From positions 62,001-126,000 of the IMG/VR virus record IMGVR_UViG_3300023170_000009: a stretch of 64,000 nucleotides of DNA. The stretch is one strand, 5' to 3'. The DNA comes from a virus. Shown piece by piece: positions 32,251 to 61,174 of the stretch. The notes below the pieces were generated by a model. It did no database searches. It was not told the DNA's origin and worked only from the letters and a program-made list of their open reading frames with translations. Both the position numbers and the translations under genes were made by a program. Each line of letters starts with the position of its first letter. Position 1 is the stretch's first letter.

Positions 32251-32907
32251 TTGATTACAATGAACACCATTTTAACATTAAAATACGGAAACAAATACAC
32301 GTCGAATGACGTTAATTCTATTTATGAAAAAACAAGACCCCACAATTTTGTCTGTGTCACAGATAATCCTGAGGGTCTAGATCCAAATATACAAGTTATT
32401 CCTATAACTTGGGAAATAGAAGGACATTGGGAAAAGGTTAAGTTAATGCGTTATAATAATCTAGGCTCTGTATTGTACCTAGATTTAGATATTCGTATAC
32501 AAAAAAATGTAGATAATTTTTTTAAAATGCTTGACAAAACCCCTATGATTTGTTATACTTATTGGAAACCTAATGATCTAGCGTTCATCAAATCTAAAGA
32601 CTGGTCTTATAATTATTTAAGTAACTATAACTCTAGTGTCATGATGTGGCAAGATGCTACTCACATATATAATTATTGGAAGGAAAACTCCGACTATTAT
32701 ATGGTAAAATATGCAGGAGATGATAGATTTCTATTTCATGAGGGATTTACTTTTGAACACTTCCCAGAAGGAGAAGTATATTCCTTTTGGTTTGACGGCG
32801 GAAAGATAAAACCAAAGGCAACAATTGCTTTATTAAATGGACAAGAAAGTATAGAGGAAAATATAGCAAAGCATTATGATGAACTTTATTTGCATCAAAT
32901 GGGGTGA
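32251..32907 (+). CDS. GT-A glycosyltransferase-like protein, island paralogue 1
   Basis: A 218-residue protein. Shared family features: N-terminal LKYGNKYTSNDVNSIYE, VCVTDNPEGLD, YLDLDIRIQKNVD (about 72-84) with a D-x-D metal site, and a late YSFWFDGG. The pattern resembles GT8-like nucleotide-sugar transferases but is short. No Shine-Dalgarno is visible before the ATG. It opens a six-gene-plus block of overlapping plus-strand genes. Acceptor unknown. Confidence 0.78.
   Translation: MITMNTILTLKYGNKYTSNDVNSIYEKTRPHNFVCVTDNPEGLDPNIQVIPITWEIEGHWEKVKLMRYNNLGSVLYLDLDIRIQKNVDNFFKMLDKTPMICYTYWKPNDLAFIKSKDWSYNYLSNYNSSVMMWQDATHIYNYWKENSDYYMVKYAGDDRFLFHEGFTFEHFPEGEVYSFWFDGGKIKPKATIALLNGQESIEENIAKHYDELYLHQMG
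32531..32559 (+). promoter_or_regulatory. Near-consensus sigma70 promoter inside glycosyltransferase 1
   Basis: TTGACA (32531-32536), 17-base spacer, TATACT (32554-32559); 11 of 12 consensus bases. It could drive the next glycosyltransferase genes. It lies in coding sequence, so chance is possible. Confidence 0.5.
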
Positions 32908-33655
32908 TAAATATTCTCCTGAATATGTAAACAACCTCAAAAACATGGTCGAAAAAAACTTTACACGGCCGTGTACATTCACCTGTTTCACAGACGATCC
33001 TGCAGGATTAGAATGTGAATATCTACCTATTCCAGATGTACAACCATTGCATCCTAAATACTGGTTTGGTAAAGATAACTATTGTTGGGATAGAGCTAAA
33101 TTCTTTGTGTTTAATGCACACAATATTTTAGGTTATAAAGGCAAGTATTGCTATTTTGATTTAGATGTAATAATTCAAAACAATATAAACGACTTAGAAA
33201 TATTGGCAAAAAAACCAAGACTTGTACATTCCAAATGGCAACCAGACGGACAACAACACGATAGATTTTTTATAGACATTCGTGGCACATATTATAATAC
33301 AAGTATGATGTGCTGGGAATACAATCAATGTGAGCAAATATATTACGATGTTTTAGAGCATCAAGATGTTGTGTTCAAAACATTTTTTAAAGGATCAGAT
33401 AACTACCATTATTGGAGACAGCGTAATTTCTGGGGCAACATTCCTTTTGATTGGGTATACTCTTATAACAGAGGAGCTCATTGGAAAGAGGATAACGACA
33501 AGTATAAATATAGAAAAGAATACAAAGTTTGTATTTTTAACACAGATTTAACACCCGATCCTGCAGCTAAGGATCAAATTAAGATTAGTGATTTACAAGA
33601 TGAGAAACTTTTGAGGCATTGGCATGGAGCTAACTTTAATAGCAAATCTACTTGA
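32876..33655 (+). CDS. GT-A glycosyltransferase-like protein, island paralogue 2
   Basis: A 259-residue protein starting MMNFICIKWGDKYSPEYVNNL. Motifs: CFTDDPAGL (about 40-48), HPKYWFGK (about 60-67), YFDLDVIIQNNI (about 93-104, D-x-D), WRQRNFWGNIPFDWVYSYNRG (about 182-202) and VCIFNTDLTPDP. It closely parallels the 35359 gene in all these blocks, so the two are recent paralogues. Overlaps paralogue 1 by 32 bases. Confidence 0.82.
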   Translation: MMNFICIKWGDKYSPEYVNNLKNMVEKNFTRPCTFTCFTDDPAGLECEYLPIPDVQPLHPKYWFGKDNYCWDRAKFFVFNAHNILGYKGKYCYFDLDVIIQNNINDLEILAKKPRLVHSKWQPDGQQHDRFFIDIRGTYYNTSMMCWEYNQCEQIYYDVLEHQDVVFKTFFKGSDNYHYWRQRNFWGNIPFDWVYSYNRGAHWKEDNDKYKYRKEYKVCIFNTDLTPDPAAKDQIKISDLQDEKLLRHWHGANFNSKST

Positions 33656-35123
33656 TACCAAGTATACCCAAGTCCAAGTAAATAATTTTTACACTCAAGC
33701 AAAAAACTTGATAAAGGATCCTTTTGAGTTTGTTGTCTTTACTACACAAGAAGAACTAGATGAAATGGTAGAGACAAACAAAATCAAAGGGTATGCCATG
33801 CCCTTTAAAATACATGTACCGAAATATGGACATGAATGGTTAGAGATAGATTTAATAAAACATACACCAAAATATGGCGTATCTTTATTTGTTACACCCA
33901 ATATTCTTTTAAACAATCCAGAGAAAATCCTGGAGTATAAAACTGCTGGTATAGACAAGTGTATTATGCAAGACGGCAATGTTGCATACTTCGTTAACCA
34001 TAACAAATTTGTTAGCAACGTTTTACAAAAATGGGAAAGAGAAGAAAACGATTTAACTTTTTATAATCACGAATTTAAACAAGAATTTCAAGTTAATGAA
34101 ATGGATACTTTACCATTTCTAAATTCTAAAAATAAAGAATATCCTGTAAGTCTAGATGATCCTATAGTAGCTTTTCCTTTTTGGTATACACATAAAGTTG
34201 ACAGCTATATAGAATCCTGTTATAATAGATCTACAGATTTATATCCATATCTACCGAGAGCACTTGAAATAGAAATATGTGGATTTACTGTAGAAGAAAT
34301 AAAAAATATCTTTACTGAGGACTATACAAATTTAGCTAGAATGTCTAAAATAGTATTATCCAATGATGAAGAAGAACCTACTAACTGTAAAGACTTTTAT
34401 GATATATGTGAATATCTAATGGAAACAAGAAATATTAGTATTGACTTACTAACAGATTTAACAAACTTTGACAAGTATTGGTGGGGAACAGTAGGCATAC
34501 TATTTAAAAATATGGGAAACATCACAGTAACCATAAACGACATATATAATAGAGAAATAGAAAAACAGATGTCAAATGCTGAGGCATTGTTACAAAGTGG
34601 AGCTAGAGTATTTTGGCAATACACTAGAACAACACAAACAGATGAGGACATAGAGAAAGCTAAAGCACTTTCTAAAAAACATAAGTTCTCAGGATTTAAC
34701 TTTATTGAAAATAAAGTCGAAGAAAAAATAAATGTAGTAGAGGTAGAGGAAAAAGAAGACTTGCCTGACTACAAGTTAATAGAGTTGGAGACAATCAAAC
34801 TTAGGCAAAAAGACGCTGAGTATTTAGACGTTAAGGTAAAATTTGATAAACAAGTAAGATGCTTAGCAAAAATAGAAAACAAGGCCTATATTGATAAAGA
34901 AGGAAACGTTTTTCCATGTGTATTTACTGCTAAAAACATATTAGTAGCAAAAATAAATCCTTACGAGGAAACAGATATTTTGTACGATTGGAAAAGTAAT
35001 AACTGTAAAGTACACGGATTGAAAAAAATATTCACTAACAAATTTTTCACATCTTACTTTACCAACAAACTAAAATTAGATCCTAGTCTAATTTGTAATA
35101 AAAAATGTGGAGTATTAAAATGA
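33624..35123 (+). CDS. Fusion: degenerate GT-like domain plus radical-SAM/SPASM-like domain
   Basis: A 499-residue protein, not recognised as a known family. Residues 1-195 begin like the neighbouring glycosyltransferases (IANLLDTKYTQVQVNNFY, FVVFTT) but have no D-x-D. Residues 198-499 follow the layout of radical SAM proteins: CYNRSTDLY at the place of CxxxCxxC (only the first Cys kept), KIVLSNDEEEPTNCKDF where the GNYGDP-type strand would be, a barrel-like middle (SIDLLTDLTNF, VTINDIY, FWQYT), and a SPASM-like end with IDKEGNVFPC (Cys432) and Cys491/Cys495. Loss of the cluster implies a non-radical or pseudo-enzyme role. Inference from pattern only. Confidence 0.7.
   Translation: MELTLIANLLDTKYTQVQVNNFYTQAKNLIKDPFEFVVFTTQEELDEMVETNKIKGYAMPFKIHVPKYGHEWLEIDLIKHTPKYGVSLFVTPNILLNNPEKILEYKTAGIDKCIMQDGNVAYFVNHNKFVSNVLQKWEREENDLTFYNHEFKQEFQVNEMDTLPFLNSKNKEYPVSLDDPIVAFPFWYTHKVDSYIESCYNRSTDLYPYLPRALEIEICGFTVEEIKNIFTEDYTNLARMSKIVLSNDEEEPTNCKDFYDICEYLMETRNISIDLLTDLTNFDKYWWGTVGILFKNMGNITVTINDIYNREIEKQMSNAEALLQSGARVFWQYTRTTQTDEDIEKAKALSKKHKFSGFNFIENKVEEKINVVEVEEKEDLPDYKLIELETIKLRQKDAEYLDVKVKFDKQVRCLAKIENKAYIDKEGNVFPCVFTAKNILVAKINPYEETDILYDWKSNNCKVHGLKKIFTNKFFTSYFTNKLKLDPSLICNKKCGVLK
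34198..34226 (+). promoter_or_regulatory. Perfect sigma70 promoter inside the fusion gene
   Basis: TTGACA (34198-34203), 17-base spacer, TATAAT (34221-34226), all 12 bases matching. It lies at the boundary between the two halves of the fusion protein (codons 192-201) and would transcribe the C-terminal half and the genes to 38.1 kb. Confidence 0.7.
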
Positions 35124-35362
35124 ACACGACAAGAGAAATAAGAAAGTCAACCGCATATATGGGTTCCTTTAATGATTGGAATAATGAGGATACAGACTTC
35201 GTTATTGATTCTGTAAGAGGAGGCAGGTTTGTTTCTATTGTAGTTAAAGGTCCCAGGGAACAGTTTGACGATACATCTAGCAATATTGTATGTGAACTTG
35301 TAAATTATGGTTTGATGTACGGCAGAGACTTTATTCTACAAAACCTGACGGAGACATCATGA
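35120..35362 (+). CDS. Small unknown protein
   Basis: An 80-residue protein starting MNTTREIRKSTAYMGSFNDW; this ATG overlaps the preceding stop (AATGA), which fits the coupled style of the island better than an earlier start at 35105. It has mixed alpha/beta pattern (FVSIVVKGPREQF, LVNYGLMYGRDFIL) and no motif I recognise. It ends in an ATGA overlap with the next glycosyltransferase. Confidence 0.7.
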   Translation: MNTTREIRKSTAYMGSFNDWNNEDTDFVIDSVRGGRFVSIVVKGPREQFDDTSSNIVCELVNYGLMYGRDFILQNLTETS

Positions 35363-36171
35363 GAGTAAATGTCGTATGTTGTAAATGGGGAACCAGGTAT
35401 GGTCCTCACTATGTTAATCGTTTATATAACATGTCTAAAAAGAATATAAACGATAAGCACGAGTTTCATTTTTACTGTTATACAGACGACAGCGAGGGCC
35501 TATTAGATGACATTAAAGTTATACCATTTCCTGATATTCCTAATATCCATCCTAAGTATTGGTTTGGCAGCGATGATTTCAAGTTTGGAATGGCAAGGTG
35601 CTGGGACAGGCCTAAAACATTTATTTTTAATACGCATAACTTTGCTGATGATAAGCCTCATGGCCGCTTTATCTTTTTTGATTTAGACGTTGTAATACAA
35701 AGAGATTTAGAACCTGTTCTAACTTACAATATGGAACGTCCAACAAAAATGAGATCTTGGTGGCAGGATCCTCGCCCAATGAAAACAAGAAGATTTAAGT
35801 TAGCACATGGAGCGCATACCAACGGCTCTTGTCAGGTATGGAGCGATGATCAATGTGAGGTAATATGGGAAGATGTATTACAAAACCAAGATAAAATATG
35901 GTTCACTTATACAGACGGAACAGATAATTATCACAGTTGGAAGTGGAGAGACTTATGGGATCACTTTCCCTCAGAATTTGCCTACTCCTATAACAGAGGA
36001 AGGGACTGGGAGTCAGGTGATTTAGAAGTTGGTATATATAGGGAAGGTTGCATTCTTTGCGTATTTAATGTGGACATACTTCCTTTTGAGGATAACAGTC
36101 GAGGACATGTAAAACAAGATGACCTCGCAGATCCTAAATTATTAAAGCATTGGACAGTGAATGAACTTTGA
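35359..36171 (+). CDS. GT-A glycosyltransferase-like protein, island paralogue 3
   Basis: A 270-residue protein with all shared blocks: VVCCKWGTRYGPHYVNRLY, CYTDDSEGL, HPKYWFG, RFIFFDLDVVIQRDL (about 104-118; D-x-D), WKWRDLWDHFPSEFAYSYNRGRDWE and CVFNVDILP. This is the best-preserved member of the set and nearest to paralogue 2. Acts in the cytoplasm of the host (no signal or membrane segment). Acceptor may be phage tail proteins, host glycans or DNA. Confidence 0.84.
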   Translation: MRVNVVCCKWGTRYGPHYVNRLYNMSKKNINDKHEFHFYCYTDDSEGLLDDIKVIPFPDIPNIHPKYWFGSDDFKFGMARCWDRPKTFIFNTHNFADDKPHGRFIFFDLDVVIQRDLEPVLTYNMERPTKMRSWWQDPRPMKTRRFKLAHGAHTNGSCQVWSDDQCEVIWEDVLQNQDKIWFTYTDGTDNYHSWKWRDLWDHFPSEFAYSYNRGRDWESGDLEVGIYREGCILCVFNVDILPFEDNSRGHVKQDDLADPKLLKHWTVNEL

Positions 36172-36781
36172 AGAAATTGTAAAGTTAAGTCCTGAAATAA
36201 GTAATGTTTTTGATTATGAAGTATTTGAAAATGTTATTAACTTGTTGGGCAAAGACGAAGTACATATACTAGAAATTGGAAGTTGGAAAGGAGCGTCTGC
36301 AGTTGCTTGGTCCGAGATTTGTATTAAAAAGGGAATAAAGTATTCTGTGGAATGTTTAGACTGTTGGGATAATAGTCCAACAACAACATCAAATTTTGTC
36401 TGGAAAATGTTTGAGGAAGAGAAAGGACAAAACAAAAAAAATTATGAGTGTTTTTTAAAGAACACGAAAGACTACAATATTAGTCATAAGAAGATTCCTT
36501 ACAGCTACCCAATATTTTGGAACGAACACCGAGCCAGTAGAGGGACTTACGATATAGTGTATTATGATGCAGCACATGACAAAAACTCTACTTTTAATAG
36601 TTTAATCTACTGGTCGCCTAAAGCAAGTTACATGGTTGTAGATGATTATTTTGAAGGTTTTGATAAACAACAATTATGGCAAAAAGAATGTACTATAGGT
36701 ATTAATTTAGCAGCAGATTATTTAGGAAAAACAATAGTCAAACAATCTGCAACAAACAAAGTGATATATTGGGAATGTTAA
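36161..36781 (+). CDS. Class I SAM-dependent methyltransferase-like protein
   Basis: A 206-residue Rossmann-fold protein. Motif I is VHILEIGSWKGASAVAW (about 31-47), an acidic end of strand 2 is CLDCWD, and DIVYYDAAHDKNSTFNSL (about 126-143) followed by YMVVDDYF matches the Methyltransf_24 type found in sugar and glycan methylation loci. Overlaps the flanking glycosyltransferase genes by 11 and 7 bases. Likely methylates a sugar made or attached by the neighbours; inference. Confidence 0.8.
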   Translation: MNFEEIVKLSPEISNVFDYEVFENVINLLGKDEVHILEIGSWKGASAVAWSEICIKKGIKYSVECLDCWDNSPTTTSNFVWKMFEEEKGQNKKNYECFLKNTKDYNISHKKIPYSYPIFWNEHRASRGTYDIVYYDAAHDKNSTFNSLIYWSPKASYMVVDDYFEGFDKQQLWQKECTIGINLAADYLGKTIVKQSATNKVIYWEC

Positions 36782-37458
36782 ACATCTATACAGTTAAATG
36801 GGGAACAAAATATTCCCCCAAGCACGTTGAGGCTATTTACAATAGTTGTAAAAAGTTTATAACCTGCGACTTTAATTTTTATTGTTTAACAGAAGATCCT
36901 AAAAACTTACACGAGGATATAAAAGTTATTCCATTGCCAAACGATAATAAATTAGAAGTTTGGTGGAATAAAATGTATTTGTTTGATGAGAATGTTGTAA
37001 GACAAAAAGGAGAAAAATTATTCTTTGACTTAGACATTATTATACAAAGAAATATAGATGAGCTTGTTAATTACGACCCCGAGGATTGTTTGTGCTTTTT
37101 AAAAACACATTGGCACGACATGGAAACGCAGTATAAAGAAACAAGGCATATACCTCATAAGTATACAGACTTAAACTCTTCTGTATTACGTTGGAACGAC
37201 AATTTAAATACAGAAGAAATAACATTGTATTTTAAAAAACATATAAAACAAATTTTATGGTATTATAGAGGAATAGATAATTTTTTCCACCATCGTGGTG
37301 TGGCTAGAATTAAATATTTTCCTATAGGATGGGCATATAGTTATAACGTAGGATATATATACCCACATGATATAGAAACACACGTCTATAGACAAATTCC
37401 CTACGTTTGTCTATTTGACTCAATGGGAAGAAAAGAAGATGTCAAACTTGAACTTTAA
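36775..37458 (+). CDS. GT-A glycosyltransferase-like protein, island paralogue 4
   Basis: A 227-residue protein; the ATG at 36775 gives MLNIYTVKWGTKYSPKHVEAIY, matching the paralogue N-termini better than the ATG at 36769. It keeps CLTEDPKNL, LFFDLDIIIQRNID (about 84-97; D-x-D), a RGIDNFFHHRG block and WAYSYNVG, and ends with VCLFDSMG. It overlaps the methyltransferase stop and the next gene. Confidence 0.82.
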   Translation: MLNIYTVKWGTKYSPKHVEAIYNSCKKFITCDFNFYCLTEDPKNLHEDIKVIPLPNDNKLEVWWNKMYLFDENVVRQKGEKLFFDLDIIIQRNIDELVNYDPEDCLCFLKTHWHDMETQYKETRHIPHKYTDLNSSVLRWNDNLNTEEITLYFKKHIKQILWYYRGIDNFFHHRGVARIKYFPIGWAYSYNVGYIYPHDIETHVYRQIPYVCLFDSMGRKEDVKLEL

Positions 37459-38116
37459 TTTTTTAAACAATTTAAAACATTGGGGAGATGGCTTAGCTAA
37501 GGTAGAACATGAAATGCCCCACAAGCATGATGACTTTAGACAGTCTCTGAACCCAAATACAATGGAAGGTGCTATTTGGTTAGTCGAAGAACTTAAAAAA
37601 GTTTTAGACGAACACTATATGAAAGAAAGCGACTTTAATATATTAGTCCTTAATTCTTGGCTAGGTGTTCCACTTGTTCCTTTATTGTGTGAAAATTTAT
37701 CTGTAGGACAATTACACTTAGTTGATATAGACCCCGAGGCTTTAGAACTTTCTAAAGTATTTAACTCGCATTATATAACAGAAGAATTTATTAAAATACA
37801 ACACTGGAACCTAGATGTTCCGTTTGCTTTTGATGAATTAAATCAACTGAACGTAGATGTTGTTATCTCTTTAGGGTGTGAACAAATGTATCCTTTACAA
37901 GAACTAATAACAGCTAACAAACACGCAATATTTGCTTGTCAGTCTTCTAATGTTATTGAGGAAATGTACGGTATTAATTGTGTTGATACTACAGAAGCAC
38001 TAATTGAAAACGTTGGGCTAGAAGAAGTATATAGTTCTGGAAAAACAATTCAATACTATTATTCTTGGGACGGTAAAAAGTTTTACGATAGATTCCAAGT
38101 TATTGGAAAAAAATAA
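37439..38116 (+). CDS. Methyltransferase-like Rossmann protein
   Basis: A 225-residue protein. The start at 37439 has GGAAGAAAAGAAG upstream and is chosen over 37415. The core NILVLNSWLGVPLVPLL (about 64-80) and LHLVDIDPEALELSKVF (about 87-103) resemble motifs I and II of class I methyltransferases, with VDVVISLGCEQMYPL as motif IV position; the glycine-rich loop is atypical (NSWLG). Conserved PHKHDD lies near the N-terminus. It closes the coupled part of the island. Confidence 0.7.
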   Translation: MSNLNFNFLNNLKHWGDGLAKVEHEMPHKHDDFRQSLNPNTMEGAIWLVEELKKVLDEHYMKESDFNILVLNSWLGVPLVPLLCENLSVGQLHLVDIDPEALELSKVFNSHYITEEFIKIQHWNLDVPFAFDELNQLNVDVVISLGCEQMYPLQELITANKHAIFACQSSNVIEEMYGINCVDTTEALIENVGLEEVYSSGKTIQYYYSWDGKKFYDRFQVIGKK

Positions 38117-38117
38117 T

Positions 38118-38125
38118 TATAAATA
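38118..38125 (+). promoter_or_regulatory. T4-type late promoter 5 nt from the hesB/iscA-like ATG
   Basis: TATAAATA on the plus strand followed by TTTTT and then ATG. By the usual T4 late start point the transcript would begin at the A of the ATG, giving a leaderless mRNA. No Shine-Dalgarno is present. Confidence 0.6.
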
Positions 38126-38130
38126 TTTTT

Positions 38131-38514
38131 ATGTCTAGCGTAATCGAAATCACAGATAATGCGATACAGAAACTTCTTGAAAAACAAGAAAAAGACGGCT
38201 TTAAAAACATCCGACTCGGAATTACAGGCGGAGGTTGCGCTGGCTTTGAATACGTTTTCGACTCTATTAATGATAACGGCGATGTGTCTGATGATATATT
38301 TGTTGATTATGGTAGGTTCGGCGTAGTAATAGATAAAGTATCTATACCTTACATAGTGGGAATGACATTAGATTGGCAAACAGAAGGTCTAAATGAATTT
38401 TTTAAATTTGTAAACCCTAAGGAAAAGGATTCTTGTGGGTGTGGGGTGAGTATAAACTTTGACTTAGAACAAGTTGAAATAGATACAAATAAAATTACAG
38501 CAATAAATATTTAA
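38131..38514 (+). CDS. hesB: HesB/IscA-type iron-sulfur carrier protein
   Basis: A 127-residue A-type carrier. It starts with IEITDNAIQKLLEK, has GGGCAGFEYVF (Cys36) and the C-terminal CGCG pair (Cys102, Cys104), which together are the three cluster-binding cysteines of IscA/HesB proteins. Such proteins deliver Fe-S clusters; in this phage the radical SAM QueE would need one. HesB genes are known in marine T4-like phages. It is convergent with the 2OG-oxygenase-like gene (4-base overlap of the ends). Confidence 0.93.
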   Translation: MSSVIEITDNAIQKLLEKQEKDGFKNIRLGITGGGCAGFEYVFDSINDNGDVSDDIFVDYGRFGVVIDKVSIPYIVGMTLDWQTEGLNEFFKFVNPKEKDSCGCGVSINFDLEQVEIDTNKITAINI

Positions 38515-40597: not shown

Positions 40598-41944
40598 TTA
40601 TGCTGTCCTTATCCAAAGCTTAATGCTAGATACTGTTTCAGTAGTTGCCTGAATCGTGTCACCTGCATAAGTTCCACTATAGTAACCTGTATAAGTCCCA
40701 GTATAACTTCCTGAATAAGCAGATGTTCCAACGTAGTGGCCTGTATATGTTCCACTATAGTATCCTGTATAAGTTCCAGAATAAGTAGAAGTTCCTACGT
40801 AGTTGCCTGTGAAATATCCAGTGTAAGTGCCGGTGTAATAACCTGTATAAGTTTTAGGTCCTGTGTAATAACCTGTATATGTTCCACTATAGTATCCTGT
40901 ATATGTAGCATGTGCATATCCAGAGTAATAAAGAACATAGTTGCCTTGATAAGAACCAGAGTAAGATCCAGAATACCCAGAAGTACCAACATAGTTACCT
41001 TGATAAGAACCGGAATAGTTGCCTGAGTAGTTTCCAGAATATGTTTTGGAACCAACATAACCACCAACATAGTTACCTGCATAAGAACCGGAATAGTTTC
41101 CGGAATATGTTTTCGCACCTACGTAAGCACCTACATAAGAACCAGAATAATTACCTGTGTATGCTCCTACGTAGTTTTCAGATGCAACCTCTTGTCTTGT
41201 ATCATCAAACTGTGATCCCATCTGTACCCAAGTTCCACCAGACGTCGGCGCCGTTGCTTGAACTTTATATGTGCCTACGCCGGTATCAATAATTCTATTT
41301 CTAAAGTTAGGAACCATCTGCTCAATTTCTGCTGCTGTCATCTGTGTAATAGATGATCCATCTGTTTTAACAGAAGCTAAATCAGAGTTTGCAGATGATG
41401 TGGGTGCTGTTTTTTGCCAAAGATATGTGTTATTATTTCCGCCTTGTGCGGTATCTGTGATCGTATATCTAGAAGTCCAAGTACCACCTGTAGGGGCAGA
41501 TGGTTGCAACACATACTGTCCAACAGTATAATCAGATTCAGAAACCATATCAGACAATGCTTTATCTAAAATATCTGTATCAATGGCAGAATCAGACATT
41601 TGTTTTACACCTGAATCATAACCCGCAGGTCTTGCAGTAATACTTTCTGAGGCCGCAGATGTAACCTGTTTAAAGGTATATGTGTTACTACTTGTAGCTC
41701 CTGCTGTAGGATGTGAGCCTATCGAATCTTGTCTAATAGTATTTGTAAAAGTACCTATAGATGTACCAGAAGCACCATCAACATTTAATTCTCCTGTTCC
41801 TGTGCCATCTGTATCTGTAGCAAATTTGTTTGTTAAAACGTAAGAAAGATACTGTTGTATCTCTCCATCTGTCATTTCCTGCAATCCTGTAAAATTGCTT
41901 GATGTGATCGGTGTTCCCGATGCTTTAATTCTTAACGGCCTCAT
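40598..41944 (-). CDS. Fibre-like protein with Tyr-x-Gly repeat domain
   Basis: A 448-residue protein. The N-terminus RPLRIKASGTPITSSNFTGLQEMTDGEIQQYL and two further TQMTAAEIEQM/KQMSDSAIDTDIL type segments are the part usually found on marine phage fibres. From about 260 to 425 it is built of tandem Y-(S/T/V)-G-x-Y units (YSGNYSGSY, YTGYYSGTY), Tyr and Gly rich, and it ends VSSIKLWIRTA. The repeat would form a stiff beta structure exposed to the solvent. Upstream of the sigma70 promoter, downstream of the other fibre gene. Confidence 0.8.
   Translation of the reverse strand: MRPLRIKASGTPITSSNFTGLQEMTDGEIQQYLSYVLTNKFATDTDGTGTGELNVDGASGTSIGTFTNTIRQDSIGSHPTAGATSSNTYTFKQVTSAASESITARPAGYDSGVKQMSDSAIDTDILDKALSDMVSESDYTVGQYVLQPSAPTGGTWTSRYTITDTAQGGNNNTYLWQKTAPTSSANSDLASVKTDGSSITQMTAAEIEQMVPNFRNRIIDTGVGTYKVQATAPTSGGTWVQMGSQFDDTRQEVASENYVGAYTGNYSGSYVGAYVGAKTYSGNYSGSYAGNYVGGYVGSKTYSGNYSGNYSGSYQGNYVGTSGYSGSYSGSYQGNYVLYYSGYAHATYTGYYSGTYTGYYTGPKTYTGYYTGTYTGYFTGNYVGTSTYSGTYTGYYSGTYTGHYVGTSAYSGSYTGTYTGYYSGTYAGDTIQATTETVSSIKLWIRTA
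40660..41175 (-). repeat. Tandem Tyr-x-Gly coding repeats
   Basis: Degenerate tandem units of 12-24 bases, with plus-strand words such as CCTGTATA, CCAGAATA and ACGTAG recurring, encode Y-x-G-x-Y-x-G. Larger blocks of about 90 bases (for example around 40675-40790 and 40795-40905) are near copies, indicating expansion by duplication. Confidence 0.75.
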
Positions 41945-42713: not shown

Positions 42714-45700
42714 TTAAGCCTGTAATGCAATAGCTCTAAGTTCTTTAATAGTAGGAACTTTTGCTGGTTGTGAGGATATTGGCACAATCTTCACTGCAAA
42801 CTCTTTATAAGAGGTGTAAGTAATAGTTGTTTGACTTGCCGTTGCTGTAGCATCTACCGAAGCACCTCCTCCAGAAATTGTTACTGTTACGGTACCGCCT
42901 GTATATCCTCTTCCAGGATTTACAATGTCTATGCCTGTTACTAAACCAGTTGCCGTATTAACATTAGCAACCGCTGTTGCTCCATAGCCATTCCCTGAGT
43001 GTTCTATTGTTACAGAAGGTTGTGAAGTGTACCCAACACCTGGTGTTGAAAGTGTTATACTATCAATAACATCTACATCATACTCAAACTTTAAGCTAGT
43101 TGGATTTAATCCGTAAGAATCACCCGGTGCTTTTTCAGGTATTGAATAAACATAATCCTGTTGAGCTCCTGTAACGTTACTATTCTCTCTAGCTAAATCG
43201 CCTTGGAGTTGTAAAGGTATCCAGTATGCATCTTCAAATAATTCACCACTATCCTGTCCGTTTAAGAACTTGCCATATACTTTTACATCTGTACCTGCTG
43301 GTAGAGAGTTGGATAGATACACATTTAGATCTTCTGCATCTTGTCCTTCATCCAATATAACCTTCCTAGTTATATATCTTGAACGAGCATCTCCACCGCT
43401 TCTTTGATCTTCATTGGTATAAACATCATCAATATCATTTTTAAATATTAATTGATTTAACTGTAAGGTATCAACTAATGGAGATACATTAGGATTGTTT
43501 GTGCTTAAAACTAATTTTACAGCAACATCTCTAGCATCTGCATTGTCTCCTTCAGAAGTGTAAATATTAGAAATAGATCTAACCATTCTTCTTTCTAAAA
43601 GTTCCTCTGTTCTTCCCAGCTCAAACGCTGTCCAATTGGAATCCTGTGTTCCTGCAGTATCTCTTAATTTGTAATATGCTTGTACAGATGTGCCAGGTGG
43701 CTCTACTATAGATTTGGAAAGAGCTAATGCATCAATATATCTACTGTCAATGCTTTCTATTTCATCATTGGTGATATCAGATGTTCCAAACCAAGGTCCG
43801 ATCATAATCTTATCTCCTGGTTCAAATGCTACGTCATTAGCCGCTCCACCGATATAACCTGTAAAGGAATTAATAGACCAAGTTTCCACCTCAAGATATT
43901 CTCTTAATGGATGAACTTGTATAATATCTCCATTAACCACGAATATATCTACGGTTGCATCTTGAGTAGCACCACCACCAGTAACGGTTGCTGTTAAATT
44001 GTCCCACCAAGCCACCGTTTCTGTTCCAGCGCTAATAACATTGACACCTGTCATCTCTCCTGTAACAGTATCAACTACCGCCTCAAGAGTAACTCCTTTA
44101 TTTGTACCATCAAAGACAGACTCTACAGTTATAGTAGGCGTGCTAGTATAACCGGCACCTGGACTTGTTACAGATGCCTTAACAGTATGTATCATATGGC
44201 GTGGTTGGATAGAATTATACTTGCTAGGGTCACTAAGTTTTATATAATCTCTTGTCGCATTTCTTATGTGCAGTTCTCTACCTGAACCAACTTCAAATGA
44301 ACACTTGTTAATTGCAAACATCATATCTAAAGACTGTTGAGGAGTCCAAGAAACATTATTGGCAGATGTAAACATAATACCATTATGAGGTTGTTTAGCA
44401 ATTCTTGTCTCTGTTCCTACTTGGAATTCTCCTAATTCTGAAATCCATATTTCCCAACCTGGGTTGTTGTTAGCGGGGATTGGAACAAAACAGTATTCTG
44501 TCTCGTTCAAAAGATAAACGGGCTTATTAAATCTAAACATCGACGGTACAAACTGTACTGCACCCCCCTCAGATTCTTCAGACGGTGTAATCTCCCAGTT
44601 GCTCATAGTGCAACTTCCCAATACCTTCTCGCCAGGAACACCATTGACAACTTCTCTTATTTGTAAAGTTACTTCTGCCCATTCATATGCTGGATCTGGG
44701 ACAGTTCTAAAATATAGTTGAACGTCCCGTAAGAATACGCCCCCAGATTCTCCGCTTACTCTAAATGTTTGTGCTAGAGGATCTTGATATCCCCAGCCCC
44801 AACCGCGTTCTCCACCACCAATCCATAGGTCGTCCCATATTCTAATCGATAGATCTGGAATAACAAAAGACCAAGGTGTTTGAGCAGGCGCCGGAGGAAT
44901 AACTGGCGGCTCTGGTGTGGCAGCTGGAGGTTCTGGTGTTGCTACCGGAGGCTCTGGTGTTGCTGGAGGAGGATCTGCAGGCCCTGCAGGTGGGGGAACA
45001 GGCTGTTGGGTTGTCTTATTGTGTGCAACCATTCCGTTCGCCACGTAATTGTGCGAGCCATCTGTTTCAAAGTTATATACTTTTACTGTCTGCAGTCCCA
45101 TCCATTGAATACTTGTAACTTCTTTTTCTGAAACTGTGCCATCAAGTTCAATAGAAATAATTCTATCACCAACTTCTAACTTACTAACTTCTAAATTGTA
45201 TTGTTCGTATACACCTATTTCTTTTGTTATGTCTGGATTAATAGATTTCCATCCATCTGTTGTCATAAATGGGTGACCGGGTGTTACACCACCAACGCCG
45301 TTAATTTGAAATATATCCTGCGGCGCTTCTGTGATATGGTGAACCTTAACTACAGTATTTACTGTATAGTGCTTACCTGCTAACCCACTTATACCTGCGA
45401 CTTTATCCCCCGCTTCAATCTCTTCAATAGGTTTGACGCCATTCTCTGCCATTAAAATTTCTGTTCCCGCAATAAAACATAGTGTGTGCGTTCTTGGAGG
45501 AGGATCAATTCTAGTCCAATCCAAATCTGGATCAAAGGTTGCTGGTTCAAAAATAACAGTTGTTACCGGCCAAGGTACATAATTCGGAATAGGAATAGGA
45601 TTAGGAATAATCTCAGGAGGAGGTAAAGGAACACCGCCACCCGCCACATATTCATATACTTTATCTGTTACTACTCTATCATCTGTAACCGTATTTTTTG

Positions 45701-48700
45701 TAACATTTACAGTTCTTGTAGAAACGATTGTGTTTTGTTTTGTCTGGGACATTCCAGAGCTTTGGAATGTTGCCTCACAAGACGTTGTCGTAAACCTATC
45801 TCTATTTAAACTATCGTCAGTAAACATCATAACCCTGACGCCTGTTTGGAAAACTCCTGCAGGTACCCTAAAGTATCCGTATAAAGAACCTACAGAATCC
45901 GTAACTAAAGAGCCACCTGGATTAGGATAAACCCAAGTTCTATCCGTACCCGGCAATGCCATTGTTGCGGGATCTTCTGCAGCAAATGTAGCATATTGTC
46001 CTGTATCTACAGACTGGCCTGATAACCTAATCGGTGTTTGCGGTTTAGGAACTCCTCCTTCTTTTAATCTTGCAGTGGCTCCACAATATTGTGAAACATT
46101 AACACCATCAAAGAAAGGATAAACTCTTGTGTTTGGTTTCATATTTTTCAAGTGGAAGTGAATTACTCTAGGCCTCATATAGCCCAAGATTGATGTATCT
46201 ACTACCATGTTTCCTAGAGAATAAGATTCTAAACCTCCTTCAGAAACATCTATTGTTGTTCCACTTCTTGTTTGATTTTGGCTAGTAGTGTATGTAATAA
46301 ATGAATCGGAACCGCCCGTTGCATTGTCAACCTGTCTTGTAATAGTTTCTCGGTCGGTCTCAACCTTTGTCATTGCTCCAACGTCCTCCCAGTCACCCCA
46401 TTGAGTACCGAAAGCGTCTTCCATCTTTTTCCAAGCATCATAATTTCCACTAAACTCTACGGAAACTTCTGGTGCAGTATCTGTGTCTACCCAGTTATCT
46501 ACTGAAGGAGACAAAGTACAGGTTCCTCTGTAATTAAACAGTAATTCAGAAACTAGGTTCTTAGGTTGGCTGGCAAACATATTAGCTGTCAATCTTGTTC
46601 CTTCATATGGAATTGTTGCCCAAAGTCCAGAATCTCCTGACTCCCAAGCCCAGGCTGTTTGTGCTGTGGTATTTGTCCAATCCATGTCTGCGTCTAAAGA
46701 TTCACTATAAAAATACGGACGCAAATGCTTCTTCTTAAAATCCATTGAGCAATGATAATCTGGATCTTCTACGGCTCCTACAGAGTGTCCTGTAAAATTA
46801 TCTACAAGTATGCCGTTTTTAAATCTATTTAATCCACTGTTAGCGTTTGTAATTTGTAAAGATTCTGCTGCCTTTTCTAGCAAAGTTAATGTAGTGTAAT
46901 ATTCTAGATTTTTAATTCTTTTCTCTAAAACACCAATATCTCTCATTGTAAAACGTCTATTGTCTGACTGTTTTACAACAATATCGTAATCGTATCTGTT
47001 TAATCTCTTAGCTGCCTTTGCCGACAAACATGGATATTGCGGCAAGTTAAAGGAAGCCAACTTCATGCTTGCTTCTGGGGTTTGTGGGAACTTGGGACTA
47101 GCAGAGTAAGCTGACTCAATTACTCTAAACTCGCCATGTTCATCTAAAACAATAATTGCGTTTCTGCCTAGATAGTATTCTAAATCTGTTGTAAACTGTT
47201 CTGTTGGAATAGGATTAGTTAACCCTGTATTGGGTCTAAAAATTATTTCTACTTCCGAAGGATTTAAAGGCGCGCCCGCAAGTGTTGATGTTGGCGTAAC
47301 AGTGCTTTGCATCATAGGCCTAAAATCAATACAGTCCCTAAGATCCATATTTCCAAAATACTTGGACTTATACAGTGGTATTTCTTCAGTTTTAATTCCA
47401 GTAGCTCCTGTATCATCTACGGGATAAGAATTAATACAGAAGAAAGATGCTGTACTATAAGAATGTGAGAAGTAATCAAATGTTACTTGTAAATAAGGAT
47501 ATGTTGAAAGATTTACAGACGCTGTTTTCTTTTTAACTAACTTTGCATGTCCATAAAAACTGTCCTTTTGTCCGTTGTCCATTGTAAATTGATTTGTAAC
47601 ATCTATAGGACTGCTAAAGTTTGAGTTGGCAGATGCATATACAGATTTAATTTGAAAACCATCTGCAACCCCTAGACTCCAAGGTCCACCGATTCCTTTA
47701 GGGTGGGCTGCAACGTTAAATGTTACAATTTTATCTGACTGTAAAGACTTAGATGCAGGAGTTCCATCAATATGTTGTAGATTTGCATATACTCGAACTT
47801 GGTTTGCTGATCCCGTTAAAACACCTAAATTAATTGTGATGTGCTTAGAGCTATTTAAAGTAAATGTTGCTCCAGATAAATCAATATGCTCACCTGCAGC
47901 ATAAGTAATACCACCGAGGATTACCTGTTCTCTAGCAACTGCTAAGAAATTGTCTTCAATCACAGTTTGTGTGAAACTTGAATATGGGAATGTGTCGTTT
48001 GGCAAATTATACTGTGAGCTACTAGAGCTAATATCTAGTTCTACGTTACCAGAACTATCTGCAGTTACATCAAACTCTCTACTGTAGATAAAGGAGTAAT
48101 CGTAACCACCGTTGTCTGTTGCCATGTTTTTAACAGCATTGTATGGAAGTTTCCATAACATTTTATTGAAAGAATTTTCTTTTAATACGGCGCTGTCAGG
48201 AGTACCATCTCCTGTTGTATCTTCTAAAATAAGATCTGCATAACCATCGGTTTGTGCGTGATCAAAATGCAAGCCTCTTACGGATGTAAAAGGGCCGTTG
48301 AGCATTTGAATATCATACAAATATATTCTATATTTTGCTGATGCTAAACCAGGTGTTCCTTCTTCTAAAGCTATATGTCTTACTCTTGCTTTACCTACTA
48401 CGCTTCCTGTGCTTGTTCCTGATGTAATAAACCCAGGTGCGGTGTCTAATAAATCTACTCTACCGCCACCATCGACATCAAACAATCCATAAACTTCATT
48501 TGCCAAAACATAATTGCCATATGCTGTTCCAATAGAAGCACCTTCAACATATTTGTATTCTGTTGATTTATTAATCTCTATTCTTTTTGTTTGCTCTAGT
48601 CTTCTAGGATACCCAGCAACAACAGCTTCACCCGCATCAATATTTACTAGGAGTTTTGTTGCATCTCCTCCTTCTGCAGATGTAAAGAATCCAGAATTTT

Positions 48701-49703
48701 CTCCGTCATTCAAGTGTTCTTGTACTGTAACTTTTAATCCTCTTACAACATAATCACCAGATTCGTTGTATGTTCTTTTTGCTAACTCTTTACCTAAAGC
48801 GTTAAAAGGATCAGTTTTTGTTTGTACTACAGTAGGCGAACCAAATTGGTATTGCCCATACTGTACAAAGTTTTCAGGCTGTATGATGCCTGTGTCTGCA
48901 CCCCTAACGTTAGTGGTGAAAGATGTTAAGCCTATAGTATATCTAAGTCTGTCTGCACCCGGTGCGTTTTCGTTATAAGATCCAGCTGCCGGATCTAACA
49001 GCGAGCTGTCTTCACCTGAGTTTATAATTTCTTCATATAAAGTAAATCCAACATTAATTAATTTATCTTCGTGAGAATATCTGTGAAGATAAGTTGATAT
49101 TTGGTTGGACTGTACAAAGGCACCGTTTATATAAATTAACCCGGGAGAAAGTGTTATTTTTCTTGATTTTCCGTAATAACTGTTTTCACTTACACCCGTT
49201 GAACTTCCAACCACCACTGTTGAATTATTTAAACTAGAGGTATTAGAATAAATGTCTAATACTTCTCCTGGTTGAAATACTTGATAAGTTCCTGTAGTGT
49301 CGCCTGATGTGTATCGAATATAAAACGTTTTTGTGTCAGGTGCTTCCGCCTGTGTGCCTGTTGCAACTTCTAGGACTTTGGCTTGTATACCTGTTGTTCT
49401 TCCTACAACAATAGCATTGACATATCCAGCAAGAGTTTCATCTGCTAAATCTATACCATTAATATCTGTATCATTAATTTTAATCCAATCAATATCCGCT
49501 AAATCTTCTTTACAACCAGAGACAATGGTACCTTCTCTTAAAACATAGGTTCCTAATTGAGAAACTTGGTTGCTCAATATACTTTGTAGCTGTGTTAGCT
49601 CTCTTGCCTGTACAGCAACACCTGGCTTAAAAAGAATCCTCTGAAACTTTTTACCTTCAGAGAAATCGTCGAAATATGGTGCTGAATTTAAATTAATTGC
49701 CAT
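42714..49703 (-). CDS. Giant baseplate/tail protein with N-terminal DUF4815 and internal HINT domain
   Basis: A 2329-residue protein. The start NLNSAPYFDDFSEGKKFQRILFKPG is the N-terminus of the DUF4815 virion family of cyanophages. Residues about 1360-1408 and 1563-1620 are Pro-rich (PEPP repeats on the C-side) and flank a HINT domain at 1409-1562: CFIAGTEI block A, TPGHPF block B, and SHNYVANGMVAHN block G. The next residue is Lys1563, not Cys/Ser/Thr. The C-terminal part has three copies of a G-Y-x3-P-T beta module shared with gp8 and the gp7-position protein. It follows gp8, where T4 has gp9/gp10; role in the baseplate is inferred. Confidence 0.9.
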   Translation of the reverse strand: MAINLNSAPYFDDFSEGKKFQRILFKPGVAVQARELTQLQSILSNQVSQLGTYVLREGTIVSGCKEDLADIDWIKINDTDINGIDLADETLAGYVNAIVVGRTTGIQAKVLEVATGTQAEAPDTKTFYIRYTSGDTTGTYQVFQPGEVLDIYSNTSSLNNSTVVVGSSTGVSENSYYGKSRKITLSPGLIYINGAFVQSNQISTYLHRYSHEDKLINVGFTLYEEIINSGEDSSLLDPAAGSYNENAPGADRLRYTIGLTSFTTNVRGADTGIIQPENFVQYGQYQFGSPTVVQTKTDPFNALGKELAKRTYNESGDYVVRGLKVTVQEHLNDGENSGFFTSAEGGDATKLLVNIDAGEAVVAGYPRRLEQTKRIEINKSTEYKYVEGASIGTAYGNYVLANEVYGLFDVDGGGRVDLLDTAPGFITSGTSTGSVVGKARVRHIALEEGTPGLASAKYRIYLYDIQMLNGPFTSVRGLHFDHAQTDGYADLILEDTTGDGTPDSAVLKENSFNKMLWKLPYNAVKNMATDNGGYDYSFIYSREFDVTADSSGNVELDISSSSSQYNLPNDTFPYSSFTQTVIEDNFLAVAREQVILGGITYAAGEHIDLSGATFTLNSSKHITINLGVLTGSANQVRVYANLQHIDGTPASKSLQSDKIVTFNVAAHPKGIGGPWSLGVADGFQIKSVYASANSNFSSPIDVTNQFTMDNGQKDSFYGHAKLVKKKTASVNLSTYPYLQVTFDYFSHSYSTASFFCINSYPVDDTGATGIKTEEIPLYKSKYFGNMDLRDCIDFRPMMQSTVTPTSTLAGAPLNPSEVEIIFRPNTGLTNPIPTEQFTTDLEYYLGRNAIIVLDEHGEFRVIESAYSASPKFPQTPEASMKLASFNLPQYPCLSAKAAKRLNRYDYDIVVKQSDNRRFTMRDIGVLEKRIKNLEYYTTLTLLEKAAESLQITNANSGLNRFKNGILVDNFTGHSVGAVEDPDYHCSMDFKKKHLRPYFYSESLDADMDWTNTTAQTAWAWESGDSGLWATIPYEGTRLTANMFASQPKNLVSELLFNYRGTCTLSPSVDNWVDTDTAPEVSVEFSGNYDAWKKMEDAFGTQWGDWEDVGAMTKVETDRETITRQVDNATGGSDSFITYTTSQNQTRSGTTIDVSEGGLESYSLGNMVVDTSILGYMRPRVIHFHLKNMKPNTRVYPFFDGVNVSQYCGATARLKEGGVPKPQTPIRLSGQSVDTGQYATFAAEDPATMALPGTDRTWVYPNPGGSLVTDSVGSLYGYFRVPAGVFQTGVRVMMFTDDSLNRDRFTTTSCEATFQSSGMSQTKQNTIVSTRTVNVTKNTVTDDRVVTDKVYEYVAGGGVPLPPPEIIPNPIPIPNYVPWPVTTVIFEPATFDPDLDWTRIDPPPRTHTLCFIAGTEILMAENGVKPIEEIEAGDKVAGISGLAGKHYTVNTVVKVHHITEAPQDIFQINGVGGVTPGHPFMTTDGWKSINPDITKEIGVYEQYNLEVSKLEVGDRIISIELDGTVSEKEVTSIQWMGLQTVKVYNFETDGSHNYVANGMVAHNKTTQQPVPPPAGPADPPPATPEPPVATPEPPAATPEPPVIPPAPAQTPWSFVIPDLSIRIWDDLWIGGGERGWGWGYQDPLAQTFRVSGESGGVFLRDVQLYFRTVPDPAYEWAEVTLQIREVVNGVPGEKVLGSCTMSNWEITPSEESEGGAVQFVPSMFRFNKPVYLLNETEYCFVPIPANNNPGWEIWISELGEFQVGTETRIAKQPHNGIMFTSANNVSWTPQQSLDMMFAINKCSFEVGSGRELHIRNATRDYIKLSDPSKYNSIQPRHMIHTVKASVTSPGAGYTSTPTITVESVFDGTNKGVTLEAVVDTVTGEMTGVNVISAGTETVAWWDNLTATVTGGGATQDATVDIFVVNGDIIQVHPLREYLEVETWSINSFTGYIGGAANDVAFEPGDKIMIGPWFGTSDITNDEIESIDSRYIDALALSKSIVEPPGTSVQAYYKLRDTAGTQDSNWTAFELGRTEELLERRMVRSISNIYTSEGDNADARDVAVKLVLSTNNPNVSPLVDTLQLNQLIFKNDIDDVYTNEDQRSGGDARSRYITRKVILDEGQDAEDLNVYLSNSLPAGTDVKVYGKFLNGQDSGELFEDAYWIPLQLQGDLARENSNVTGAQQDYVYSIPEKAPGDSYGLNPTSLKFEYDVDVIDSITLSTPGVGYTSQPSVTIEHSGNGYGATAVANVNTATGLVTGIDIVNPGRGYTGGTVTVTISGGGASVDATATASQTTITYTSYKEFAVKIVPISSQPAKVPTIKELRAIALQA
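45018..45479 (-). other. HINT (BIL-type) autoprocessing domain
   Basis: Codons 1409-1562 of the giant protein: begins with Cys, ends with His-Asn, 154 residues, no homing endonuclease. Lys at +1 fits bacterial-intein-like type A domains, which cleave more than splice. Pro-rich linkers on both sides suggest that cleavage would free an N-terminal part of about 1408 and a C-terminal part of about 767 residues. Confidence 0.88.
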
Positions 49704-59204: not shown

Positions 59205-59507
59205 TTAGCCTCCTATATACACCTTACTACAACCAGTATCTACAGTAGCTCCGCAGTCCACACTATCACCTATTCTTGCTGCAGCTTTATTCTCAATAAA
59301 AACATTTGATGAACCTGAAGATATTTTAGGTGCTCCTGATGTATTATGTGTGGTGCTGCCTTTGCTGTGTGCCGTTGTTGCGTCACCTACTCTAGCTGCA
59401 AGTTTACTCTCTATATAGGTTTTACTTGCGCCTTCTGTGATATCAAATGGTGAGGGTGACCACCCTTCGTGTACACATTTATCTTCCTTTCTACTAGCTA
59501 TAGGCAT
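59205..59507 (-). CDS. PAAR-domain spike tip protein
   Basis: A 100-residue protein with the duplicated PAAR pattern: AARVGDATTAHSKG and AARIGDSVDCG, each followed by beta segments VFIENK and VYIGG. PAAR proteins form the metal-bound sharp tip on the gp5 or VgrG needle (T4 gp5.4, 97 residues). Candidate metal ligands are His/Cys residues in CVHEGW, TAHS and DCG. Adjacent to gp5, one-base overlap, as expected for a tip cap. Confidence 0.93.
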   Translation of the reverse strand: MPIASRKEDKCVHEGWSPSPFDITEGASKTYIESKLAARVGDATTAHSKGSTTHNTSGAPKISSGSSNVFIENKAAARIGDSVDCGATVDTGCSKVYIGG

Positions 59508-61174
59508 TAGTTAATATCCACCCTACTTGATCCATCAATGTCAACATTAGCACCTTTAAGTTTCCATGTATTCGTAACAGTTGAATCTATGCTCTTTGCA
59601 GTTTCTTTAATGTCTGTAGCCACCTTAACAATTTGATTTGCTTTTGTTTCTAATGTCATTGTTTGTTTTGATTTTATTGTAGACGTTTTACCTGCTCCCA
59701 TACTGTACAACCCAGCAACACCCAAATTATAATCACCACCTACAAGAGTTGTATAATTGCTCCCTACAGTTACCTTCATATCTGATAAATGCTTTTCACT
59801 AACTTTTCCTGAAACAGTTGTCCTTTTATCTTGTCCTACAGAATGTGTTTGATTGCCTACGATTGTTTCTGTGTCGTCTCCTGTTACACGACAACCACGT
59901 TGACCGTTTATCTGTGTGTTTTGGCTAGACAATACCTCTAACAAATCATTTCCGCCAACTTTTGTTACGCGGTTGCCTTTAATAGAATTAAATTGATTAC
60001 CATCTACTTCTGTATACATATCACCTTGAACATACAATGAGGCATCTCCTGCAACATGTATATCACAGCTTCCACGTATCTCAACACGCTTGTCTTTTAA
60101 TGTTATATCATAACCGTCACCAACAACCTTTGTTATCTTAGTACCGTCAGCCTGTATTTCTTCAAATGTTCCGGAGTTGTGGTAGTTACTTATTCTTCCA
60201 TTGCCAGGAGTATCATCTACTTCAAAACAATGTCCTGTTTCTGTTTCCCAAACCTTATTAAAAGGATACATGGAAGTTTTGCCGTCTTGAATTAAATCAC
60301 TTTCCGGTTTTGTGCCTATAGGAACATAACCTTCCCACTCTGTAGTAACTTCATTATTTTCTACGTATCCTAACCCATCTTCACTTGGACCCATGTCACT
60401 AAATCTATGAGCAGGTTCTTGCCAAGTTCCTCTATCGTATCTTGTATTAGGCAATTTCTCAAATATGGAAGATACATTAGGAGCTGTTGCTCTAGGTATA
60501 TCAATTAACCTTGTATCTCTTTTATTAATATTTACAAAGTGATGTTCTGCATCGGCACCTCTTGCCAATCTAGAACTATCGGGTTCTTTTAAGTAGTTAA
60601 ATCCTGTGCCCTTTCCATCTCTAGGAAATATTCCTCTAGGATCAACAAACCCTTGATAATCCAGAGCAATACCTGTAGTAGATGACAAATCCTCTATCTG
60701 CTTTTTTAATAAATCCCTTTTTTCTTCTAAAGCATCCCGTTGTAAGTCGTTTATATCTTCTGCCAGAGCTGTTTCTACTGATGCTAATTGTCTTTGTAAT
60801 TCTGCTAGAGCCTCTTGTCTATATTCCTTCCATTTCTCATTAGATTCCTCATCTAATAGTGTTGGGCCTACCTGTGGCAAACTTGTAAACGAACCAAATA
60901 TAATTGGCTGCTGTCCATCTTCTCCATCAGCAAAGAAACCAATTACTGAAGATCCTTCTACCAAAGCGCTTGACTGCCCTACGCCTGAGATACTAGCAGA
61001 TGTTACAGGCATAACAGGAACTGCCCATGGCAATTCATTTGTTGGTAGTATTGCTTTATTACCCGTATGGTAACCTAATATTCTTACTCTATATCTTCCT
61101 AAAAATTCTGGATCAGCTCTATCCTCAACAATTCCTATCCACCAAAAGAACTTTGGCACTGACATATTACTCAT
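59507..61174 (-). CDS. gp5: gp5-like baseplate spike lacking the lysozyme domain
   Basis: A 555-residue spike protein. The N-terminal OB-fold is KFFWWIGIVEDRADPEFLGRYRVRILGYH (about 8-36) with LPWAVPVMPV and GSSVIGFFADGEDGQQPIIFGSF. In place of the T4 gp5 lysozyme comes a coiled-coil stretch (about 124-172, EALAELQRQLASVETALAEDIN). The C-terminal half (about 335-555) is a VgrG-like triple beta-helix with repeating VxGD/VxGN units (HVAGDASLYVQGDMYTEVDGN). It punctures the outer membrane; peptidoglycan cleavage must come from another protein. Confidence 0.92.
   Translation of the reverse strand: MSNMSVPKFFWWIGIVEDRADPEFLGRYRVRILGYHTGNKAILPTNELPWAVPVMPVTSASISGVGQSSALVEGSSVIGFFADGEDGQQPIIFGSFTSLPQVGPTLLDEESNEKWKEYRQEALAELQRQLASVETALAEDINDLQRDALEEKRDLLKKQIEDLSSTTGIALDYQGFVDPRGIFPRDGKGTGFNYLKEPDSSRLARGADAEHHFVNINKRDTRLIDIPRATAPNVSSIFEKLPNTRYDRGTWQEPAHRFSDMGPSEDGLGYVENNEVTTEWEGYVPIGTKPESDLIQDGKTSMYPFNKVWETETGHCFEVDDTPGNGRISNYHNSGTFEEIQADGTKITKVVGDGYDITLKDKRVEIRGSCDIHVAGDASLYVQGDMYTEVDGNQFNSIKGNRVTKVGGNDLLEVLSSQNTQINGQRGCRVTGDDTETIVGNQTHSVGQDKRTTVSGKVSEKHLSDMKVTVGSNYTTLVGGDYNLGVAGLYSMGAGKTSTIKSKQTMTLETKANQIVKVATDIKETAKSIDSTVTNTWKLKGANVDIDGSSRVDIN

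Follow-up and report, generated by a model that had tools for sequence, protein, structure and literature searches.

An apparently intact A-type BIL-like Hint domain at the hinge of a phage VrlC baseplate protein

A 2329-residue VrlC/DUF4815 baseplate protein is encoded in a 64,000-nucleotide window of DNA from an uncultured virus of bacteria (the whole stretch analysed, positions 62,001 to 126,000 of IMG/VR record IMGVR_UViG_3300023170_000009). To judge from its sequence, it carries at its hinge a complete, genuine and apparently intact A-type BIL-like Hint domain. We believe that this Hint is active and processes VrlC after translation, most likely by cleavage into chains of about 155 and 83 kDa, with a probability of roughly 0.55. 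Cleavage is the likeliest outcome because the phage Hints often end in HN followed by Lys or Arg at the DPLAQTF motif, because their catalytic residues are near-invariant, and because separate C-part genes of relatives start at that motif. The Hint of the window is one member of a recurrent phage Hint branch at the VrlC hinge and not a one-off.

The precursor protein and its Hint domain

In profile searches the precursor (Table 1) matched PF16075 (2.5e-45) and phrog_358 (E=0). The profile covered both parts of the protein, and the position of the gene after gp8 fits VrlC. The gene order gp8, VrlC, a small gene and fibre genes is common to the window and to cultured relatives such as Pelagibacter phages HTVC008M and Mosig, Methylophilales phage Melnitz, Ochrobactrum phage OC and Sinorhizobium phage phiM7. 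These profiles and the gene order bear out the initial annotation, which had placed the domain in a baseplate or tail protein of this length. For Ackermannviridae, VriC has been discussed among the components of the baseplate (PMC11721090). The only solved VrlC homologue found was ORF65 of the phi812 baseplate (9euf and related entries), with a profile E value of 7e-103. The gene also occurs on a second, near-identical contig, where the Hint and linkers show no codon changes and 10 codons differ elsewhere. When either the Hint or the N-part served as a single-sequence query against viral contigs, nothing beyond this contig was found. The GC content of the Hint (0.387) lies inside the range of the gene, so it gives no sign of recent transfer.

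Table 1. Features of the VrlC precursor in the window
Feature	Position	Strand	Basis
VrlC/DUF4815 baseplate precursor with Hint, 2329 aa	42714..49703	-	ORF; PF16075; phrog_358; gene order
N-part, residues 1-1408, 154.7 kDa predicted	45480..49703	-	ORF translation
N-anchor, folded beta domain before hinge, residues 1175-1316	45756..46181	-	AF2 model; phi812 ORF65 alignment
Disordered Pro-rich N-linker, residues 1320-1408	45480..45746	-	pLDDT < 50; 22% Pro
A-type BIL-like Hint domain, residues 1409-1562, 154 aa, 16.7 kDa	45018..45479	-	Profiles, model, Foldseek
Cys1409, block A nucleophile	45477..45479	-	Cys in 65/65 copies
Block B TxxH, Thr1474 and His1477	45273..45284	-	T/S in 65/65, His in 64/65 copies
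Block F His1551	45051..45053	-	28/65 family copies, so not invariant
Block G His1561-Asn1562 (Asn1562 at 45020-45018)	45018..45023	-	Invariant where aligned
Lys1563, +1 residue	45015..45017	-	K/R in 60/65 copies
Disordered Pro-rich C-linker, residues 1563-1638	44790..45017	-	pLDDT < 50; 28% Pro
C-part, residues 1563-2329 and stop, 83.0 kDa predicted	42714..45017	-	ORF translation

Other genes of the window were also noted. A putative fibre protein at 40598-41944 (-) has a long Gly/Tyr/Ser repeat run (NYSGSYVGNYVG type); it gave a weak glycine-zipper match and no other family match. At 59205-61174 (-), a PAAR tip protein adjoins a gp5-like spike; OB and trimerisation domains were seen in this spike, but no Pfam lysozyme match. 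Glycosyltransferase-like, methyltransferase (PF13578) and weak SPASM-like genes occupy 32251-38514 (+), while the structural genes run on the other strand, and an IscA-type Fe-S carrier (PF01521) lies within this glycosyltransferase-like block at 38131-38514 (+).

The initial annotation had reported a HINT domain at 45018-45479, and Cys1409, His1561-Asn1562 and the Lys at +1 were found at exactly these positions on the minus strand. The NCBIfam profile intein_Cterm (TIGR01443) matched the Hint with 23.7 bits against a cutoff of 15.6, and Pfam Intein_splicing matched residues 1416-1562 at 1.2e-5, under its gathering score. The evidence from the single Pfam profile is modest, and it is the predicted fold that settles the identity of the domain. 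The AlphaFold2 model of the Hint, built from 65 family sequences, had a pLDDT of 88.4 and a pTM of 0.82. In Foldseek, Tetrahymena BIL2 was the top match (6tmm/6y75, E ~1e-10, TM 0.83 of the target). BIL2 and the Clostridium thermocellum BIL 2lwy took ranks 1-5, and mini-inteins and Hedgehog came after. The family profile gave the same order against solved structures (6y75 2e-22, 2lwy 6e-21). The fold likeness to BIL2 is just slightly above that to other inteins. A 5-row alignment was the query of the genome scan for the Hint, and for one structure model the alignment rows came from the scan-retrieved contigs, annotated phage records being left out.

The domain shows the features of A-type BILs: an N-terminal Cys, TxxH, a C-terminal His-Asn, no Cys, Ser or Thr at +1, a fold and profile nearest to BILs, and a hypervariable location. 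A canonical intein was ruled out by the Lys at +1 and by the site, which is a variable Pro-rich linker and not a conserved site. A PT-HINT of a polymorphic toxin was ruled out by the conserved VrlC block, instead of a toxin domain, downstream. Fold, profile and conservation ruled out a chance match. Pfam AXH matches to the Hint were read as cross-matches because the fold of the whole domain is Hint. A Pfam search gave no homing endonuclease match in the 154-aa Hint.

Conservation was measured in 65 non-redundant Hint copies (< 80% identity). Cys1 was present in 65/65, the block B Thr or Ser in 65/65 and its His in 64/65, and HN was invariant where aligned; in copies outside the scan patterns, Cys1 was found in 22/22. 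The catalytic residues stayed near-invariant down to about 25% identity, tandem copies included. The +1 residue was Lys in 49 copies, Arg in 11, Gly in 3 and Ser in 2, and never Cys or Thr. K/R at +1 in 60/65 compares with a background K+R of 8% at +2 to +40. In bacterial and archaeal Hint loci the +1 residue was mixed (K 30, A 14, T 10, D 7, Q 6, others). A basic residue at +1 thus sets the phage virion branch apart.

The hinge and the point of cleavage

In the model of residues 1175-1830, two beta domains and the Hint between them were folded, and segments with pLDDT < 50 at about 1320-1404 and 1566-1638 joined these three units. The N-anchor was modelled confidently (AF2) apart from one loop. 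Pro-rich linkers had been described on both sides of the domain, and they are there: the Pro content was 22% in residues 1340-1408 and 28% in residues 1563-1640. The hinge-region model also matched the phi812 baseplate protein in 9eui/9euj/9euf, and the profile aligned to phi812 ORF65 on both sides of the hinge, with four residues between the blocks (chain 786 to 791). Where the window protein has its Hint, seven cultured relatives have a linker of 19-47 residues. The median hinge length was 27 residues in 72 hinges (first-set environmental loci and the seven cultured phages). L011, at 48% identity the closest relative, is a single chain with a long proline-rich linker and no Hint. Relatives have other insertions at the hinge, which are Pro-rich, Gly-rich or further segments. 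Other folded-looking inserts occur at the hinge in L035, L041, L079 and L083, and they may resemble DUF4214-type repeats.

The hypervariable hinge (11-333 residues) may simply tolerate insertions and gene breaks, which speaks against the cleavage reading. In another reading, the Hint fold would be a spacer or decoration that is unreactive in the virion. The other insertions and the absence of the Hint from most relatives agree with this reading, but a mere spacer would not keep near-invariant catalytic residues in 65 copies, and we consider it distinctly improbable.

In the cleavage reading, Cys1409 would attack the preceding peptide bond in an N-S acyl shift assisted by T1474 and H1477, and Asn1562 would cyclise with the assistance of H1561. 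With Lys instead of Cys, Ser or Thr at +1, most molecules would be cleaved and not spliced. The products would be an N-part of ~155 kDa, a Hint of ~17 kDa and a C-part of ~83 kDa; the sizes of about 150 and 80 kDa proposed earlier agree with the computed 154.7 and 83.0 kDa (Hint 16.7 kDa). The N- and C-parts would be held together through baseplate assembly. We infer the activity of the Hint, the dominance and timing of cleavage, and the persistence of the parts in the virion.

The position of the last Hint relative to the C-part supports this reading. The conserved block of the C-part begins at DPLAQTF, residue 1641. In five loci (L099, L101, L102, L107 and L112) the last Hint ends in HN and Lys or Arg directly before a DPLAQTF-type motif, and in L135, L105, L095 and L097 it does so within five residues of the motif. 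In L043, L087, L053, L092/L094 and L103 the C-part is a separate gene starting 0-22 residues before the motif, and several of these genes have a plausible ribosome site. Hint C-cleavage and gene fission thus give nearly the same N-terminus. VrlC is split at the hinge into two genes without a Hint in L043, L053 and L087. In L137 (same contig as L050) and L104 the N-part stops exactly at HNK-stop, and what remains of VrlC is encoded by a second gene that has a start of its own. A split of VrlC into two genes at a recurrent upstream site, also without a Hint, was seen in L046, L052, L061 and L086.

The initial annotation had argued that Lys at +1 favours cleavage over splicing. Cleavage is indeed the likeliest outcome, but A-type BILs without a +1 nucleophile can also splice (PMC4031507). 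These domains have a His-Asn end and can splice by aminolysis, with cleavage products predominating (PMC4031507, PMC7664689), so Lys at +1 does not by itself rule out splicing. This residue only shifts the balance, and the separate C-part genes that start at the predicted Hint C-cleavage point are the better argument. Splicing would excise the Hint and join residue 1408 to residue 1563 by A-type BIL aminolysis, giving a continuous VrlC of ~238 kDa. Most VrlC proteins are continuous chains, and the residues for the N-S shift and Asn cyclisation are all intact, as splicing would need. However, the +1 residue is Lys or Arg and never Cys or Thr, the two parts are separate genes in relatives, and removal from a hypervariable linker would be unnecessary. 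In addition, 9/65 copies end in HNK-stop and have nothing downstream to join, so they cannot splice in cis. We therefore regard splicing as improbable.

The release of two structural parts, which the initial annotation had expected, cannot be the whole purpose of the Hint, because some Hint-ended N-parts already have a separate C-part. L103, L123 and L092 likewise keep Hints while encoding the C-part on its own, so splitting VrlC is not the only job of the domain. Most VrlC proteins, L011 included, are single chains without a Hint; cleavage is therefore not needed for function. Judging by these gene arrangements, the chemistry of Hints on already separate N-parts must serve release, transfer or something else. 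This further role may be release or, by analogy with Tetrahymena BIL2, lysine conjugation. BIL2 reportedly makes isopeptide bonds with Lys and hands its N-extein over to other proteins (PMC8616854). In the window protein, the Cys1409 thioester would be attacked by the side chain of Lys1563 or by a Lys of another virion protein, and the N-part would become isopeptide-linked. BIL2 is the closest solved fold, Lys is at +1 in 49/65 copies, and terminal Hints are kept on N-parts with a separate C-part gene. On the other side, 11/65 copies have Arg at +1, the likeness to BIL2 barely exceeds that to other inteins, and the window Hint has no ubiquitin-like partner. Such conjugation is, in our view, unlikely.

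Occurrence among relatives and tandem arrays

Apart from the window's own type, a VrlC Hint was found in just one of the 80 VrlC loci closest to the window, L050. A scan of environmental viral contigs with a two-sequence Hint alignment gave 159 relatives, of which 79 loci were retrieved. In these 79 loci the family profile detected at least 126 Hint copies, many of them in VrlC ORFs. The Hint counts are lower bounds because the main seed pattern demands C-F-[IV]-A-G-T. Three Hint queries against 50,697 phage records matched helicase, terminase and a few others, and no VrlC. Among the largely open-access papers searched, those on phage Hints describe terminase, helicase, reductase and a nicotinamide phosphoribosyltransferase-type gene, and no baseplate case. 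A built-in maturation step of this kind had been called unusual; this holds for the cultured phages in these records, whereas in environmental phages the VrlC Hint is recurrent, as a single copy or even in tandem.

Two Hints occur at the VrlC joint in L097, L099, L101, L102, L103, L105 and L135, and four in L107 (2514-11579), L110 and L112 (3591-12350). L123 (3366-10565) has four and a partial one, and L100 (1571-7084) has seven in a glycine-rich protein; in both, the last copy is degenerate and lacks the HN end. Neighbouring tandem Hints (L100, L107, L112 and L123) are often linked by a single Lys (HN-K-C). Among other phage hosts, L126 has the Hint in a tail protein of phrog_2048, L111 in a glycine-rich minor-tail-like protein and L108 in a virion structural protein. 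In L131 (4364-7849), L132-L134 and L138, a central-tail-fibre-J-like protein has the same Hint type close to its N-terminus, at residue 61. In a Thermoplasmata archaeon MAG (L192, 1-6753), nine tandem Hints were seen in one ORF, mostly with very short Thr-containing links.

By analogy, the phage Hints could be covalent assembly devices, in which a thioester at the end of a baseplate or tail module is passed to a lysine. Instead of simple cutting, tandem Hints and the conserved Lys/Arg at +1 would then let proteins of the adhesion apparatus be cross-linked or conjugated without ATP. We hold this idea to be doubtful.

In the tree of VrlC N-parts, the Hint was present on 18/102 tips with 8 changes, and 500 shuffles gave a mean of 16.8 and a minimum of 13. 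Hint tips adjoin Hint-less tips with support of 0.97-1.0 (L091/L011, L105/Melnitz and L095/L081). This patchy distribution would suit a selfish mini-intein that landed by chance in a structural gene. But the Hint has neither an endonuclease nor a +1 nucleophile, lies in a hypervariable linker instead of a conserved site, forms tandem arrays and recurs in other tail proteins. A selfish origin is very improbable.

Comparison with known systems

What purpose BILs serve has been a question ever since they were described, because the bacterial proteins that hold them are variable and little understood. The BIL-like Hint of the window is found at one defined joint of a baseplate protein with a solved homologue, and relatives of this protein have no Hint, a single one, several, or a broken gene. 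This variation at the same joint offers a clean comparison for the question of BIL function. Should cleavage be confirmed, contractile tails would have a maturation step of a new kind built into them; should it be ligation, this would be a new way to build a virion covalently. The tandem arrays and the Lys/Arg signature at +1 define a recognisable phage Hint branch.

The window Hint resembles A-type BILs, such as that of Clostridium thermocellum (2lwy), in its fold, Cys1, TxxH, VYNF block F and His-Asn end, and also in its hypervariable location and the absence of Cys, Ser or Thr at +1 (PMC7765530, PMC4031507). It differs from them in that the phage Hints are found in virion proteins, at a recurrent domain-boundary site, in tandem, and with Lys or Arg nearly always at +1. 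BIL2 of Tetrahymena BUBL1 (6y75, 6tmm) is the best structural match and is likewise an intein-like domain between two independent modules, but these modules are ubiquitin-like domains, whereas the window Hint is flanked by baseplate domains. The isopeptide chemistry was reported for BUBL1 BIL2 (PMC8616854), and the phage Hint resembles this domain in fold.

The window protein belongs over both parts to the VrlC/VriC DUF4815 proteins (phrog_358; phi812 ORF65, 9euf), yet a Hint is absent from those solved or cultured members that were examined, and the phi812 hinge is about 4 residues long. PT-HINT domains of polymorphic toxins are also Hints of the autoprocessing type, and some tandem phage copies score as PT-HINT; unlike the Hints of toxins, the window Hint has no toxin domain downstream and is flanked by baseplate domains. 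The Peptidase S74 chaperone of tail spikes and fibres cleaves itself within a phage tail protein (PMC7824862), as is predicted for the Hint. In contrast to the Hint, it is an unrelated domain with Ser/Lys chemistry that helps fibre-type proteins to fold, as their chaperone.
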